A program made the position numbers and the translations under genes. The notes under the pieces are model-generated. The model worked only from the letters and a program-made list of their open reading frames with translations. It ran no database searches and was not told the origin of the DNA. A stretch of DNA of 29,921 nt, from IMG/VR virus record IMGVR_UViG_3300004457_000309, positions 1-29,921 of that record; one strand, written 5' to 3'. The stretch is from a virus. This document shows, piece by piece, positions 7,528 through 29,857 of the stretch (within the stretch, counting starts at the first letter, position 1; every line of letters starts with the position of its first letter).

Positions 7528-8094
7528 ATGCAAAAACCGCTCGCATTTGTAGACGTAGAAACGACAGGACTCAACTCTGCAATCCATGAAGTGATAGAAA
7601 TATCGATCATCAAAGTCTGTCCGCAGAAAGGTGAGACGACATTCACCAGCAAGATCGCTCCCCTACATATTGAACATGCAAGTGACAGAGCTCTCGAGAT
7701 CAACGGATACAATCCAAAGGAATGGAGAAATGCACCAGCTCCTGACGTTGTCTTTGCTCGAGTTGCTGATCTGCTGTCTGGCTGTATCCTCGTCGGACAT
7801 AACGTTCGATTTGACGAGGAGTTTATCTCTGAGTCTTGTCACCGGTTCGGAATCCGATGCCGACATGATCGCAGAATGATCGACACAGTGACGCTTGCTT
7901 TTGAGCATCTGCATCATCTGGAGTCTGTATCTTTGGATTCGATTCGTCAGTATTTCGGATGGTGTTCAGGACACAGAGCACAGATTGACGTACAGCAAAC
8001 AAGACGACTGTATAACAAGCTGATAAGAGCGTCTGTCATGCGTCGTCTGTACTGGAGAGCATCGTATTATCTACGCTCTTTCTTTCGGAGATAG
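7528..8094 (+). CDS. DnaQ-like 3'-5' exonuclease (DEDDh family)
   Basis: The 188-residue protein has all three exonuclease motifs: FVDVETTG (7-14) with D9 and E11; VGHNVRFDEEF (89-99) with D96; and HRAQIDVQQT (149-158) with H149 and D154. The DEDDh set is complete, so an active nuclease on DNA or RNA 3' ends is expected. No polymerase gene is present, so it may assist host polymerase proofreading, degrade host nucleic acid or process RNA. ATG 7528 follows TTAGGAGATAAT. It is divergent from the early operon, and its end overlaps the end of the holin gene by 24 bases tail to tail. Confidence 0.88.
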   Translation: MQKPLAFVDVETTGLNSAIHEVIEISIIKVCPQKGETTFTSKIAPLHIEHASDRALEINGYNPKEWRNAPAPDVVFARVADLLSGCILVGHNVRFDEEFISESCHRFGIRCRHDRRMIDTVTLAFEHLHHLESVSLDSIRQYFGWCSGHRAQIDVQQTRRLYNKLIRASVMRRLYWRASYYLRSFFRR

Positions 8095-20189: not shown

Positions 20190-20204
20190 TGTAGTCTCCA
20201 TAAC

Positions 20205-20268
20205 AAAAAAGAGTTGGGAGATCGCAGAGCCCGGAGACTACAGGATTTGAACCCTGCAACCTCCCAAC
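20205..20268 (-). terminator. Capsid-gene terminator with large loop carrying an anti-Shine-Dalgarno sequence
   Basis: On the minus strand, 15-base arms at 20254-20268 and 20213-20227 pair without gaps (13 Watson-Crick and 2 G-T pairs) around a 26-nt loop, followed by TC and six T. It lies 13 bases after the capsid stop. The loop centre is TGTAGTCTCC (20233-20242), the exact complement of GGAGACTACA, the leader before the genes at 29857, 25005, 20189, 17335, 7431 and 6876. The long 3' hairpin is therefore both a terminator and a possible source of a regulatory RNA; the second role is inference. Confidence 0.75.
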
Positions 20269-20280
20269 AAAACGATCAGA

Positions 20281-21255
20281 TTAACGCTTGCTTAGCAATT
20301 TTACTCCGCGAGCGTCTTCGATGATTCCAAGTCCGAGATAAGCGTGACCTACGATGAAGGTACTTGCTGACATAGGACGACGATCAAACTCGACAACAAC
20401 CTTACCCATAGACATAAGATCAGCAGATCCCTGTACACCGGAAGGAATACCATCGACAAAGCCGAGAGCCATCGGAGAAATCATAAAGTTGTCGAATCCG
20501 GAAGAAGCATTTTCGTTCACGTGAGCCGAGCGATAGACATCACAACCGAATAAATTTCCTGCGAAGTTTTCGCCTTTGGCCTGCAACATGTCCATTGAGG
20601 ACTGCATACGAGATACTGCGTTTCCAGTCTCATTGCGCAAAGAATCTTGAAGCTCGGTTAATGCTTTTGGCGCGAGTACACATGCGTATGGGCCGGGAGC
20701 ACCAGCACCAGAAGAAGCTTGCTCAAGCTCAAAGATAGCGTCAAAGAAGTCGTCTACTGAGAGAGTAGTTGTGTTTGCTCCCGCTGTAGTTGTGAAAGAC
20801 GCTGCTGCTGCTCCTGTGAGCTCTGCAAAACGAGTCTCGTAACTTCCTGCAATGCTTTGAGCGATGCGGAAAGGATCGATATCAGATCCACCGAATCCTG
20901 TCATTGATGCGAGATCGTCCATTTCATAAATAATGAATTGTCGAGCGGCTACAAGATCAGCACTGTTAATTGTTAGTGCTGTAGTATTTGCGGATTCGTC
21001 TGAGTTTTCAGAAGTTGCTGCGGACATGCTATCATATCCATCGAGCCCGGCCAATCTAACTCGTACGGTATCACTACCACTAGAATTTATTGATCCTTGG
21101 TAGCTCAATAAAGGAGTATTTCGAAGGTTTGTATTGTCTTTTAACAGGAGATTGATCTCTTGAGAAATCATCGCTGCGAGTCTTAATTTGTCTACAAGTC
21201 CACCAGATAAGGGACTTCCTACGCTATCAAACGTAATAGGCTTTGTTGTTGCCAT
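20281..21255 (-). CDS. Major capsid protein (HK97-like)
   Basis: The 324-residue protein starts at ATG 21255 (GGAGCCTATC upstream). It has an N-terminal helical arm (MATTKPITFDSVGSPLSGGL, then LRLAAMISQEINLLL), a segment compatible with the HK97 spine helix and P-domain around ARQFIIYEMDDLASMTG, and a late FAGNLFGCDVYRSAHVNENA with FDNFMISPMALGFVDG, typical of capsid A domains. Gene order (scaffold and accessory genes upstream, connectors downstream) fits. It has its own promoter, an 80-90 base leader with a small hairpin (21308-21325) and a dedicated terminator, consistent with high separate expression. Confidence 0.8.
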   Translation of the reverse strand: MATTKPITFDSVGSPLSGGLVDKLRLAAMISQEINLLLKDNTNLRNTPLLSYQGSINSSGSDTVRVRLAGLDGYDSMSAATSENSDESANTTALTINSADLVAARQFIIYEMDDLASMTGFGGSDIDPFRIAQSIAGSYETRFAELTGAAAASFTTTAGANTTTLSVDDFFDAIFELEQASSGAGAPGPYACVLAPKALTELQDSLRNETGNAVSRMQSSMDMLQAKGENFAGNLFGCDVYRSAHVNENASSGFDNFMISPMALGFVDGIPSGVQGSADLMSMGKVVVEFDRRPMSASTFIVGHAYLGLGIIEDARGVKLLSKR

Positions 21256-21345
21256 GATAGGCTCCATTCGTTAGGGTTATATTGAGAGTGCGTCTGGGCT
21301 TCTCTGCTGTTACCGGTGCGACCGTACCCTGCTGTATTCTTTCCT

Positions 21346-21354
21346 AGTATAGCA
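21346..21354 (-). promoter_or_regulatory. Extended -10 promoter of the capsid gene
   Basis: The minus strand reads TGC TATACT (TGn plus 5 of 6 bases of TATAAT), preceded by a T tract and, 18 bases upstream, TTGTTG. It would give an mRNA with a leader of about 85 bases before ATG 21255. The same 14-mer TTTTTTATGCTATA occurs after two terminators elsewhere. Confidence 0.55.
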
Positions 21355-21374
21355 TAAAAAAGGAGTATGCAACA

Positions 21375-21560
21375 ATGATCGATATTTTTGCTCGATATAT
21401 TGATAACAAGATTGTCTTTGAGCCAAGGAAGAGACGAGGAATGACGAAAGGAGAATACTTGAGAGCTATCTCTGCATGTAATAGACTTAACGGAAAAAAG
21501 GAGACAACAGCAGATCCAAAGACACAGAAAAAGTCTGTGCAGATCGATCTCCCTTTTTAG
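21375..21560 (+). CDS. 61-residue basic protein ending in a clamp-binding-like hexapeptide
   Basis: This isolated plus-strand gene sits inside the minus-strand structural region, with AAAAAAGGAG nine bases before ATG 21375. The protein is basic (EPRKRRGMTKGEYLRAI in residues 16-32), then a Lys/Thr-rich linker and the C-terminus SVQIDLPF. QIDLPF fits the Q-x-x-L-x-F/L sliding-clamp binding hexapeptide and is close to QLSLPL of Hda; it also recalls the acidic-hydrophobic tip of SSB. A partner on the host replisome is suggested, by inference. Two DnaA boxes lie directly behind the stop. Its insulated, opposite-strand position is that of a moron-type gene. Confidence 0.7.
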   Translation: MIDIFARYIDNKIVFEPRKRRGMTKGEYLRAISACNRLNGKKETTADPKTQKKSVQIDLPF

Positions 21561-21572
21561 TTATTCATAGGC

Positions 21573-21592
21573 TGTGTATAACTTGTGTATAA
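21573..21592 (-). promoter_or_regulatory. Two tandem DnaA boxes
   Basis: The minus strand carries TTATACACA twice (21584-21592 and 21573-21581), each matching the TTATNCACA DnaA box, within a perfect 11-bp tandem repeat GTGTATAACTT on the plus strand. They lie 13 bases after the stop of the 61-residue gene and before a terminator. Binding of host DnaA for origin, regulation or titration purposes is inferred. Confidence 0.6.
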
Positions 21593-21595
21593 CTT

Positions 21596-21604
21596 TGTAT
21601 AGCA
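21596..21604 (-). promoter_or_regulatory. Possible extended -10 after the fiber terminator
   Basis: The minus strand reads TGC TATACA directly after the T tract of the terminator at 21606-21635. It matches the TGC TATA units at 1766 and 21346, but the hexamer is weaker. A transcript from here would run over the DnaA boxes and antisense to the 61-residue gene toward the capsid gene. Confidence 0.35.
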
Positions 21605-21605
21605 T

Positions 21606-21635
21606 AAAAAAAGCCCGGCCATATAGACCGGGCTT
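21606..21635 (-). terminator. Intrinsic terminator of the upstream head operon
   Basis: Minus-strand AAGCCCGG and CCGGGCTT form an 8-bp stem with a 9-nt loop followed by seven T. It lies 22 bases after the fiber gene stop. It separates the terminase-to-fiber transcript from the capsid transcript. Confidence 0.9.
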
Positions 21636-21656
21636 GACATTACGTAAGATTAAATA

Positions 21657-23366
21657 CTAGTACCAATACCATATAAGAACACCGTCACCATTAGAGAGAT
21701 TACCTCCGAATGTCACAGTAGATCCTGAGATACTGAATTCGTCTTCGTCAGCAGGAGTGTCCCCGAGAGCTGTCATGTTGCGGAGAGACAGACCGTTCTT
21801 AAATACAAGTACAGAGTTGATGCTGTTACTTGTCAATGATTGACCTAGAGTGAGAGTTGATGTGCTCCCTCCTGATACTTGGAATCCTTCCTGTGCGAAA
21901 GTGATTCCGAGTTTTGCAGCAGTCACAGAAGAAGATCCGAGCTTGTCAGAAGTTACAGAACCACTAGCGAGAGCAGTCGTTCCAACAGCACCGGAGGCAA
22001 TCTTTGCAGATGTCACAGAAGCAGCGGCAATCTTTCCGGAAGAGATAGCAGAGTCTGCGATCTTTGCGGTTGATACAGCAGCGTCAACGATCTCTGCAGT
22101 GTCTACAGCGTTGTCGTCGAGCTTTGCATTTGTGACTGCATTGTCTGCGATCTTGCTTGCGTCGATAGCAGTCGATGCGATCTTGGCTGTAGTTACAGCA
22201 CCGTCAGCGAGCTTTGCAGTCGCAACAGCATTGTCAGCAAGTTTTGCTTCAAGTACAGAAGCAGAACCAAGAGCAGCAGATCCGACAGATCCGTCGATGA
22301 GCTCGTTTGCTCCCACAGAATCGTCAGCCATTTTTGCATTAGAGATTGAAGAGTCTGCGATCTTTGCACTGGTGACATTAGCGTCGATAATCTTGGCAGT
22401 CGATACAGAACCGTCAGCAAGCTTTGCAGTTGTGACTCCTCCGTTTGAGATGCTGATATCATCGCCATTTTTCTCGAGTCCACCTGAGACTGTGACTGAG
22501 CCGAGCCCGGTGAATCTTTGGAATTCGATGTTATCATTTCCAAGATTCGGAGCTGTGTCGTTTATACAGACAAAGCCTTGATTGTCGAAAGTGTTACCTT
22601 CAAGAGCAAAGAGAAAAGCTCCGGGAAAGTCATCACCTGCATCCATGTCTGTAGTACGAGACATTGCATTGTTAGAACCCGCGAAAGAATAAACTCCGTT
22701 ATCCTCTTGGTCTGTCTGGCCGAATAACAATACACGATCACCGTTAGACAAAGTGACTCCGTCAATGCTCGCAGGAGCAGAAGTCAGATCGACATTGCTA
22801 TCGCTAGCGACTCGGACGTTTTCTTTAACAGAGAGTCCAGCTGCGACAGAATCGACGTAGCTCTTATTCGGAACATCGTTGCCATTGCTCGGAGTGCTTA
22901 CTTGAAGAGTGCCGCCTGTGAAATCATAAGTGTCTGTCAAGTCAAGTTTTGAAGCGTCAACAGCATCGGCAGCGATCTTCGCTGTTGTTACTGCTGCGTC
23001 GTTGATCTTGGCTGTCTCGACTGCGGAGCTTGCGAGTTTGGCCGCTGAGATAGCAGAGTCTGCGAGCTTGGCTGTTGATACGGCAAGAGACGCAATCTTT
23101 GCTGTGTCTACTGCGTCGTCAGCAAGTTTTGCTGTCAATACTGCTCCGTCAGCAATCTTTGCAGATTCGACAGAAGAAGCACCGAGCTTTCCTGCTGTGA
23201 CAGCTCCGTCGTTGAGTGCTGCGGTCAATACTGCGGATGAACCGAGTTTGCCTGATGTGATTGCTCCTGATGCGATCTTGACTGATGTCACTGCATCGCT
23301 TGCGATTTTTGCTGCCACGATTGCCGAATCGACTATCTGACCGCCTTTAATTTGTACTGATCCCAT
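21657..23366 (-). CDS. Fiber-like protein with two blocks of decapeptide repeats
   Basis: The 569-residue protein has an exact 10-residue period (type ADxAVTTAKI) over residues 11-140 (13 units) and again over about 307-488 (18 units). Between them residues 165-310 form a domain with AAGLSVKENVRVAS, GDRVLLFGQTDQEDNGVYSF and a strand series ending FQRFTGLGSVTVSGG, which occurs in many phage fibers. The C-terminal 65 residues (LTLGQSLTSNSINS onward, ending VLIWYWY) are a small beta cap resembling the product of 23748-23966. It lies among head genes ahead of the capsid gene, so a head fiber is as likely as a tail fiber. ATG 23366 follows TAGGAGTATCTCTC. Confidence 0.75.
   Translation of the reverse strand: MGSVQIKGGQIVDSAIVAAKIASDAVTSVKIASGAITSGKLGSSAVLTAALNDGAVTAGKLGASSVESAKIADGAVLTAKLADDAVDTAKIASLAVSTAKLADSAISAAKLASSAVETAKINDAAVTTAKIAADAVDASKLDLTDTYDFTGGTLQVSTPSNGNDVPNKSYVDSVAAGLSVKENVRVASDSNVDLTSAPASIDGVTLSNGDRVLLFGQTDQEDNGVYSFAGSNNAMSRTTDMDAGDDFPGAFLFALEGNTFDNQGFVCINDTAPNLGNDNIEFQRFTGLGSVTVSGGLEKNGDDISISNGGVTTAKLADGSVSTAKIIDANVTSAKIADSSISNAKMADDSVGANELIDGSVGSAALGSASVLEAKLADNAVATAKLADGAVTTAKIASTAIDASKIADNAVTNAKLDDNAVDTAEIVDAAVSTAKIADSAISSGKIAAASVTSAKIASGAVGTTALASGSVTSDKLGSSSVTAAKLGITFAQEGFQVSGGSTSTLTLGQSLTSNSINSVLVFKNGLSLRNMTALGDTPADEDEFSISGSTVTFGGNLSNGDGVLIWYWY
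21903..22448 (-). repeat. 30-bp coding repeats, block 2
   Basis: About eighteen units of the same decapeptide type lie after the globular domain. A few units lose the Lys (GSAALGSA, DTAEIVDA, TTALASGS), suggesting either breaks in the fiber or older copies. Confidence 0.8.
22947..23336 (-). repeat. 30-bp coding repeats, block 1
   Basis: Thirteen 30-bp units encode decapeptides of the type (I/L)ADxAVxTAK, with Lys at every tenth residue through most of the block. The DNA copies are imperfect, so the array is kept by protein selection as well as duplication. Copy number could change by recombination. Confidence 0.8.
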
Positions 23367-28265: not shown

Positions 28266-28573
28266 AGCTTGCTCTCGTTTCTTTGGTTGATTCTCTGGAT
28301 GCAGTCTGTCCATTGTGAGCCGTCCATGTCAAACACGAATTGTATATCTGACTCTTGCAATAACATGTCTTTGATTATTGCCGCAATTAGATCGTCAACC
28401 TGTGGAGCTGTGACTGCTTGACTGTATATGTGCAGATAGTTTCTGAGCGTGATCTTTTCTTTGTCCATCTCCATAGTTAGAGCGGACATCTCTGCATTTT
28501 TGCGAGCGACACGATCGAGCATATACAAGATTTGTCCTTCAAGTGTCGTAACGTCAAGATCACATATTAGCAT
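28262..28573 (-). CDS. Hypothetical helical protein
   Basis: The 103-residue protein is helical and acidic, beginning MLICDLDVTTLEGQILYMLD and ending with a Gln/Arg-rich helix. No motif recognised. ATG 28573 lies within the end of the methyltransferase gene (7-base overlap, GAGGATGCAGT as ribosome site), and its stop overlaps the next start by ATGA. Confidence 0.65.
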   Translation of the reverse strand: MLICDLDVTTLEGQILYMLDRVARKNAEMSALTMEMDKEKITLRNYLHIYSQAVTAPQVDDLIAAIIKDMLLQESDIQFVFDMDGSQWTDCIQRINQRNESKL

Positions 28574-29196
28574 ACTGCATCCTCAAAGAGAGAGAGTTGT
28601 CTTTGATGCTGTCTCAGTCTCTCTTGTGCTTTGTCATAGTATTCTTTATCAAGCTCATAGCCGACAAAGTCGAATCCTAAGTCATGAGCTGCGAGAGCCG
28701 AAGAGCCAGAGCCTAGATGCGTGTCGAGTATCTTGTCTCCGGGCTGTGCGTATTTTTGCAAGAGCCAAAGATAGAGAGCGACCGGTTTCTGTGTAGGATG
28801 AAATCTGTCTTTTTGTGTGCTGCTTATTTTGACAAGTCTCGCAGGTTTGTCGAAGCTAGTCACAGCGAGCTCAACTTGTGACATTGTCGGCAGATGGTTT
28901 TCTTTGTCCCATACTATAAAAGTCCTATAGCAAGATAAAGGAAAGTAGTTGCCTCCCCAAACGATATAGTTTTTGCAGACTCTTTTGAGCTGATCAAAGT
29001 ACTCGTCAGGAGGAATCTCATCGTCCCAATTGGATCTCCTAATGTCATCCATGAATCTAATTTGAGAATTGACTCCTCCTCCGTCTGTTGTTCTTTTTCC
29101 GAGTCCATAAGGAGGATCGACGATTGCAAGATCAAACTCGTTGTCTCTCATCTCTCGCATAGCCTCAAGACAATCTTGATTATAGAGTCGTATCAT
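28567..29196 (-). CDS. DNA methyltransferase (N6-adenine or N4-cytosine type)
   Basis: The 209-residue protein has DPPY (27-30) as catalytic motif IV, HPTQKP (133-138) and the AdoMet site LDTHLGSGSSALAA (157-170) at the C-terminal side. This order, catalytic motif before the cofactor motif, is the beta class. DPPYGLGKR fits adenine methyltransferases well. No restriction enzyme gene is adjacent, so it is an orphan, likely protecting phage DNA from host enzymes or marking DNA for packaging. The start at 29196 is 2 bases after the TerS stop. Target sequence cannot be read from the gene. Confidence 0.88.
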   Translation of the reverse strand: MIRLYNQDCLEAMREMRDNEFDLAIVDPPYGLGKRTTDGGGVNSQIRFMDDIRRSNWDDEIPPDEYFDQLKRVCKNYIVWGGNYFPLSCYRTFIVWDKENHLPTMSQVELAVTSFDKPARLVKISSTQKDRFHPTQKPVALYLWLLQKYAQPGDKILDTHLGSGSSALAAHDLGFDFVGYELDKEYYDKAQERLRQHQRQLSLFEDAVC

Positions 29197-29197
29197 A

Positions 29198-29857
29198 TCA
29201 TGCCTTCTTGAGTGCGACGACATTGGAGCCGACAAGACTATGCAGATCCGCTTGGACTCTTTGTCTCAGGATCGGAGGCAGTGCAATAATCGTGTTGACG
29301 ATCTCGGACATGAGCTGCTCGTCTGTCATTCTCTCATGTGCGTCGATTGCTCCCTCTTCTGCATCGTATGTTTTGAGAGCTTGCATCATTGTTATCAGCT
29401 GTCTCTGCAAGGCTGCGTATGCTTGCCATGATCCGGAGTCTTTTGCTTTCGTCATCGATTGCTTGAGCTCTGATATTTGGATTGTCAGCATCGTCCGATA
29501 ATCAAGAGTGTCTGTGCTCTTGTGTGTCTCTTCTTCTGCTTCTGGGATTGCGTGCTGTGCATCGTTCTTGTATCCATGTCTCCGAGACAGGAGCCACATT
29601 GCAGACTTGACATCTCCTTCCTGTATGGAATGTGTGATCGTCTCGAGTGCTGTCATTGCAGCATGAGCATCCGCAGCTCGGACACGTTCTGCAAAGTTTT
29701 TAAAAATCTTCTGTGCTCGAGGCTGCTCTCCTTTGGCAATCCATTTGTAAATCGTTGACCGGCCGACTCCGGCCACGTCAGACGCAATCTGCATTGTCGC
29801 GCCAGTCCTCAAAGCTTGGATTATTTTTTCTTGGCTCTCTTGTAATTTTTTGCTCAT
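29198..29857 (-). CDS. terS: Terminase small subunit
   Basis: The 219-residue protein has an N-terminal helix-turn-helix (MQIASDVAGVGRSTIYKWIA, 22-41) for binding the packaging site, a central oligomerisation part (KSAMWLLSRRHGYK near residues 84-97) typical of small terminases, and a helical C-terminal part for TerL contact. ATG 29857 is preceded by TTAGGAGACTAC, the recurrent leader whose last base here is the A of the start codon. It is the first gene of the late transcript and lies beside the terminal repeat, as expected for a cos-flanking gene. Confidence 0.85.
   Translation of the reverse strand: MSKKLQESQEKIIQALRTGATMQIASDVAGVGRSTIYKWIAKGEQPRAQKIFKNFAERVRAADAHAAMTALETITHSIQEGDVKSAMWLLSRRHGYKNDAQHAIPEAEEETHKSTDTLDYRTMLTIQISELKQSMTKAKDSGSWQAYAALQRQLITMMQALKTYDAEEGAIDAHERMTDEQLMSEIVNTIIALPPILRQRVQADLHSLVGSNVVALKKA

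Follow-up and report, generated by a model that had tools for sequence, protein, structure and literature searches.

Several bacterial proteins bind the sliding clamp through a clamp-binding motif (CBM), published in two forms as Q-phi-x-[L/M]-[F/L] or Q-phi-x-[L/M]-x-[F/L]. The consensus among bacterial CBM proteins is QL[S/D]LF, and the motif is found at the C-terminus of Pol II and Pol IV and at the N-terminus of Hda (PMC11139829). Gp168 of Staphylococcus phage Twort is described in the same source as occupying the DNA channel of the clamp, and SocB of Caulobacter is a toxin that uses the usual CBM (PMC9690074). Within the sections available, the literature on clamp-binding motifs in phage proteins yielded Gp168 and SocB and nothing recognised as the 61 amino acid (aa) protein described here.

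The gene of this protein lies in a viral record 29,921 bases long, the whole of which is referred to as the window, and is divergent from a putative capsid gene. The locus is made up as follows:

20281..21267, - strand: putative major capsid gene, assigned by position only, with no firm family match
21360..21365, + strand: ribosome site AAGGAG, 9 nt ahead of the ATG of the 61-aa gene
21375..21560 (stop included), + strand: 61-aa gene, recognised from its ORF, its homologues and pN/pS
21375..21491, + strand: conserved N-terminal domain, residues 1-39, with a beta-hairpin, a helix and a basic KRRG loop (alignments and AlphaFold)
21492..21557, + strand: variable tail, residues 40-61, predicted to be disordered from low pLDDT and differing among relatives
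21540..21557, + strand: codons of QIDLPF, a hexameric clamp-binding motif by sequence match, at the extreme C-terminus (residues 56-61)
21657..23366, - strand: fibre- or decoration-like structural gene (PHROG matches)

The product, MIDIFARYIDNKIVFEPRKRRGMTKGEYLRAISACNRLNGKKETTADPKTQKKSVQIDLPF*, is net basic since it contains 14 K/R against 7 D/E. The open reading frame is real and coding, with the + frame under purifying selection and showing the lowest pN/pS of the six frames (pooled value 0.286 against 0.52-1.47 in the other five, over the N-terminal 39 codons of 15 sequences). The first-pass annotation had called an ORF with its own ribosome site and a basic product at this position, both of which are borne out, and had placed the gene alone on the opposite strand within the head gene cluster. 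This is true of its head and tail gene neighbours, all of which are on the - strand (those flanking it encode the terminase small and large subunits, portal, fibre-like protein and tape measure), and does not extend to the window as a whole, where a DnaQ-like exonuclease gene is also on the + strand. The AlphaFold model consists of two strands (residues 5-9 and 12-16) and a helix (residues 25-39) with a pLDDT of about 80, followed by residues 42-61 with a pLDDT below 50, so that the clamp-type motif sits in a stretch predicted to be disordered and accessible. Neither PHROG, Pfam nor PDB sequence searches with the protein matched a family or solved structure, a PDB sequence search with the profile of its family gave no match at all, and Foldseek comparison of the model with PDB and BFVD found nothing at or below an E-value of 0.001.

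QIDLPF matches the hexameric form of the published motif (PMC11139829), as had been proposed from the sequence at the outset. Shuffles of the window tail composition produce an F-ended motif in 0.06% of cases, and the window's remaining 38 genes, 9305 residues in all, contain two F- or L-ended motifs, QLAML (portal) and QLSLF (a methyltransferase). On this basis the 61-aa protein looks like a CBM protein, and its motif would dock on DnaN. Like Pol II and Pol IV, it carries Q-phi-x-L-(x)-F in a tail, here predicted to be flexible, but the attached domain, a very small beta-beta-alpha unit, has no recognised relatives and corresponds to no known enzyme, and unlike those proteins it has a tail that is exchanged as a cassette. 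The hexameric motif is of the same kind as QLSLPL of Hda. However, the earlier description of the C-terminus as Hda-type does not stand and membership of the Hda family is rejected, as the motif of Hda is N-terminal whereas that of the 61-aa protein occupies residues 56-61, and the latter has no AAA+ domain according to both the absence of a Pfam match and the beta-beta-alpha model. With Twort Gp168 it shares small size and phage origin, and the host clamp as target, which for the 61-aa protein would follow from its motif; the two differ in that a CBM would fill the canonical clamp pocket and not the DNA channel. SocB likewise carries the usual CBM but is the toxin of a toxin-antitoxin pair, and no antitoxin gene was identified beside the 61-aa gene.

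The gene is conserved within a group of uncultured phages. Scans of viral contigs identified 23 relatives in a first scan and 41 in a profile scan, and the putative capsid protein served as query in two scans that supplied the neighbourhoods. Among the 73 loci with enough sequence the gene is present in 52, divergent from the capsid gene, and absent in 21. The distant versions (L063, L105, L106, L107, L184 and L186) share 24-39% identity with the window protein and keep its hairpin-helix pattern. On genome contigs, the homologue search for the 61-aa protein gave 10 pattern matches and no relatives and the capsid search 85 pattern matches and no relatives, while the capsid search of phage records gave no match. 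A moron is a separate transcription unit, oriented opposite to the flanking late genes and sporadic in its presence. The label moron-like, attached to the gene in the first-pass annotation, agrees with its strand and ribosome site but sits less well with its occurrence in the same slot of 52 out of 73 capsid loci, and no clear + strand promoter was found for it in the sequence.

The tail of the protein is exchangeable between relatives and occurs in three arrangements. In the first, the protein is 60-61 aa long and ends with QIDLPF (window) or QMSLPF (L002 and L003), followed by a terminator. The second has a tail which stops at or just within a convergent fibre-like gene; L052/L053 have QLWLEF and L107/L108 have QLTLNFD, each encoded ahead of the overlap with that gene, and no motif is present in L017/L021, L022/L023, L039-L044, L046-L048, L050 and L100. 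The tail-less 45-aa proteins of L106/L109-L111 also belong here. In the third, the gene encodes around 100-104 aa and roughly its final 200 nt run antisense to a DUF5824 gene (PF19141); the motif then reads QL[ST]LF or QL[PH]LF. The third arrangement comes and goes as a cassette because L100 and L101 are near-identical (96% and 95% identity) on the two sides of a segment of about 520 nt containing DUF5824 in L101, in place of which L100 has 36 nt. As a separate observation, this DUF5824 cassette, present or absent among nearly identical phages, overwrites the 3' end of its neighbour gene.

One F-ended motif is present in 19 of 24 representative tails, as QIDLPF, QMSLPF, QLWLEF, QLTLNF, QL[ST]LF or QL[PH]LF, and none in the other five, which belong to four lineages. 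Shuffles of the 19 motif-bearing tails contain such a motif in 0.04-1.1% of cases. Four of the motif-bearing tails (QIDLPF, QMSLPF, QLWLEF and QLTLNF) are not antisense to another gene. The first-pass annotation had considered a replication take-over plausible and had named homologues without the motif as a refuting observation. The loci go some way towards it: an F-ended motif is found in 32 of the 52 gene-bearing loci and is missing from 20, among them L077, which is truncated where its contig stops, and ten that form one group with near-identical capsid proteins.

The tails opposite DUF5824 allow selection on the motif to be assessed, as they can be compared with loci that have DUF5824 and lack the gene. 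A scan for DUF5824 collected 47 loci, in 27 of which the + strand gene reads through and in 20 of which it is absent; a literature search found no paper naming DUF5824. QL[ST]LF lies opposite the '(K/Q)(K/R)G(L/R)AAW' of DUF5824 in 10 of the 27 read-through loci, and the other 17 have QL[PH]LF, located 29 codons upstream (position checked in 6 of the 17). At the QL[ST]LF site, QLxLF occurs in none of the 20 gene-less loci. In six lineages, every third base on which the motif depends is fixed (AAA or CAA, AAA or AGA, TTA or AGA, GCT), whereas for the second Ala codon of the same site, which the motif does not need, all four codons are used; over the whole gene the third base is identical across all six lineages in 29 of 156 columns. 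The motif is the sole fully conserved window out of 136 in the + frame of the QL[ST]LF set, with position 3 free (S/T), and one of two fully conserved windows out of 145 in the QL[PH]LF set, the other lying beyond the end of the + ORF. Synonymous codon draws that keep the DUF5824 protein gave QLxLF in 0.06-1.9% per representative (15 representatives) and, when only the exact site is counted, in 1.8-5.1%, with 0 of 20,000 draws giving it in all six lineages jointly, a figure that overstates independence because the six antisense lineages are related and could share one cassette of common origin. Judged by the control loci, the fixed third bases, the rank of the motif window and the codon draws, the + frame is under selection for the clamp-type motif. 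The idea that the 104-aa antisense tails are simple run-off is rejected on the strength of the control loci and codon tests. The sliding-clamp reading of the first-pass annotation is thus strengthened by the recurrence of a canonical motif in unrelated tails and by antisense codon choices that show selection. The antisense relatives represent an uncommon natural experiment, in which a five-residue motif is selected opposite a conserved gene and the gene-less loci serve as controls.

Further genes of the window bear on how the phage replicates. Those of replication type encode primase/helicase-like proteins, a RusA-like resolvase and the DnaQ-like exonuclease, and two genes are of note:

7528-8094, + strand: DnaQ-like 3'-5' exonuclease
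28567..29235, - strand: phage N6/N4 DNA methyltransferase, QLSLF close to the C-terminus (codons 28585-28599), identified by sequence and family matches

Family searches found no DNA polymerase among the searched genes of the 29,921-base window, and therefore the phage probably replicates with the host Pol III and replisome. The methyltransferase ends RQLSLFEDAVC, and a Q-x-x-[LMI]-F-like motif ends 74 of its 80 viral homologues (L252-L331), which makes this a likely clamp-docking methyltransferase family.

It is proposed that the 61-aa protein is a two-part molecule in which a small basic beta-hairpin-helix domain is joined to a flexible tail, whose end would dock into the hydrophobic pocket of the host sliding clamp DnaN. 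Once docked, the protein would do one of two things: keep its basic N-terminal domain at the replication forks of the phage, or compete for the clamp with host partners such as polymerases, repair proteins and Hda. Which of these effects docking would have is the least certain part of the explanation, and the role of the N-terminal domain is a guess, as the domain is without a recognised relative. That the protein acts as an adaptor or competitor through its tail motif in the DnaN pocket is considered somewhat probable from the sequences; the second clamp-type motif in the same phage, QLSLF of the methyltransferase, counts in favour of docking, and the motif-less relatives (5 of 24 representatives and 20 of 52 loci) count against it. 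If docking is true, the phage would reach the host replisome by the same short motif as host polymerases and Hda, unlike Gp168 with its block of the DNA channel.

A small protein with a clamp motif could also be a replication poison that, in the manner of Caulobacter SocB, blocks the clamp pocket and stops elongation of host replication, and SocB itself is reported to halt elongation through its CBM (PMC9690074). Such a function appears improbable for the 61-aa protein, the gene of which sits in a structural-gene region and whose conserved N-terminal domain would then be superfluous. Family searches of the window revealed no DNA polymerase, so the phage apparently depends on the replisome of its host; an adaptor or competitor is favoured over a general clamp poison because a phage on the host replisome would halt its own replication. 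The last residues can be read in yet another way. The C-terminal tip of SSB is acidic with a Phe at the very C-terminus, and SSB has an OB-fold domain. The proteins of the window and L002/L003 do end in PF, and a similarity to this tip had been raised as a second reading of the same residues, by which the terminal Phe of LPF would bind SSB partners (RecO, PriA). This is very improbable: the window tail is basic and not acidic, Q and L are retained, the motif is internal in most relatives (L052, L054, L063, L101, L107, L184 and L186, with ends such as QLSLFYIPPR, QLWLEFMNTSASTRQ and QLTLNFD), and the model consists of one hairpin and one helix with no OB-fold. The SSB-tip reading is rejected on these grounds.

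The motif could, finally, be a by-product: beyond a conserved N-terminal domain, translation would simply run off into a tail, and either terminators or the gene on the other strand would dictate the sequence of that tail. The tails are indeed short-lived and different, several are without a motif, and the 'KKGLAAW' of DUF5824 yields QLxLF on the opposite strand at the 1.8-5.1% per site given above from codon choice alone. In the window itself the motif is spelled CAG ATC GAT CTC CCT TTT, followed by TAG, and the LPF codons coincide with CTCCCTTTTTAG, which lies at the base of what may be a hairpin (-14.6 kcal/mol against -10.1 +/- 2.8 in shuffles), so the LPF may have been shaped by a terminator. 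The fold of L002 is weaker (-11.5 against -10.3 +/- 2.7 kcal/mol), yet Q..LPF is retained. As a general account this is unlikely, though its probability is not negligible, in view of the third bases fixed in six lineages, the 0 of 20 control loci and the first rank of the motif among 136 windows, and in three more lineages the motif does not lie opposite DUF5824.

The intergenic sequences on both sides of the 61-aa gene contain additional elements:

21346..21354, - strand: TGCTATACT, extended -10-like element facing into the putative capsid gene
21347..21361, no strand: direct repeat GTATAGCATAAAAAA, copy 1, ahead of the 61-aa gene (repeat search)
21573..21592, - strand: two TTATACACA boxes (DnaA-box-like, TTATNCACA), 11 bp apart, directly behind the gene
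21597..21611, no strand: direct repeat GTATAGCATAAAAAA, copy 2, behind the 61-aa gene (repeat search)
21611..21635, - strand: intrinsic-terminator-like hairpin of the upstream - strand gene

We take TGCTATACT to be extended -10-like, and several relatives have TGCTATAAT at this element; TTATNCACA is presumably DnaA-box-like. Across 69 related loci, TTATNCACA occurs 82 times in 58,978 nt of capsid-upstream region versus 7 times in 344,784 nt elsewhere, counts that are not independent as the loci are related. Arrays of TTATNCACA phased at 11 bp are clearest in L106 (2604-2762) and L185 (2271-2381). The sequence suggests that the DnaA-box-like array is an origin or a DnaA sink adjoining a clamp-binding peptide, and if it is an origin, clamp competition would be linked to DnaA control in phage replication. 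Because the array adjoins the clamp-type peptide, the whole intergenic slot can be pictured as a replication-control module, a speculative idea to which little probability is attached. Here the array would be a DnaA-dependent phage origin or DnaA sink, and the tail would fill the clamp pocket that Hda uses, so that clamp-dependent inactivation of DnaA could be switched off and DnaA-ATP kept for the phage origin. The tail would stem from an exchangeable two-strand cassette, with DUF5824 on one strand and the clamp-binding C-terminus of its neighbour on the other, and its motif would be kept by selection opposite an unrelated conserved gene.

The slot upstream of the capsid gene is occupied in the distant relatives L114-L125 by a different small divergent gene, whose product ends ..ITDDEQ or ..ITEEEQ and is without the clamp motif. 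An Rfam search of positions 20200-22200 produced matches, none of which reached the gathering score. The capsid gene leader contains a CTGCTGTTACCGGTGCGACC-like stretch (21304-21323 in the window) that recurs at the same spot in L114-L125, is kept even at about 55% capsid identity and is possibly a leader RNA element.
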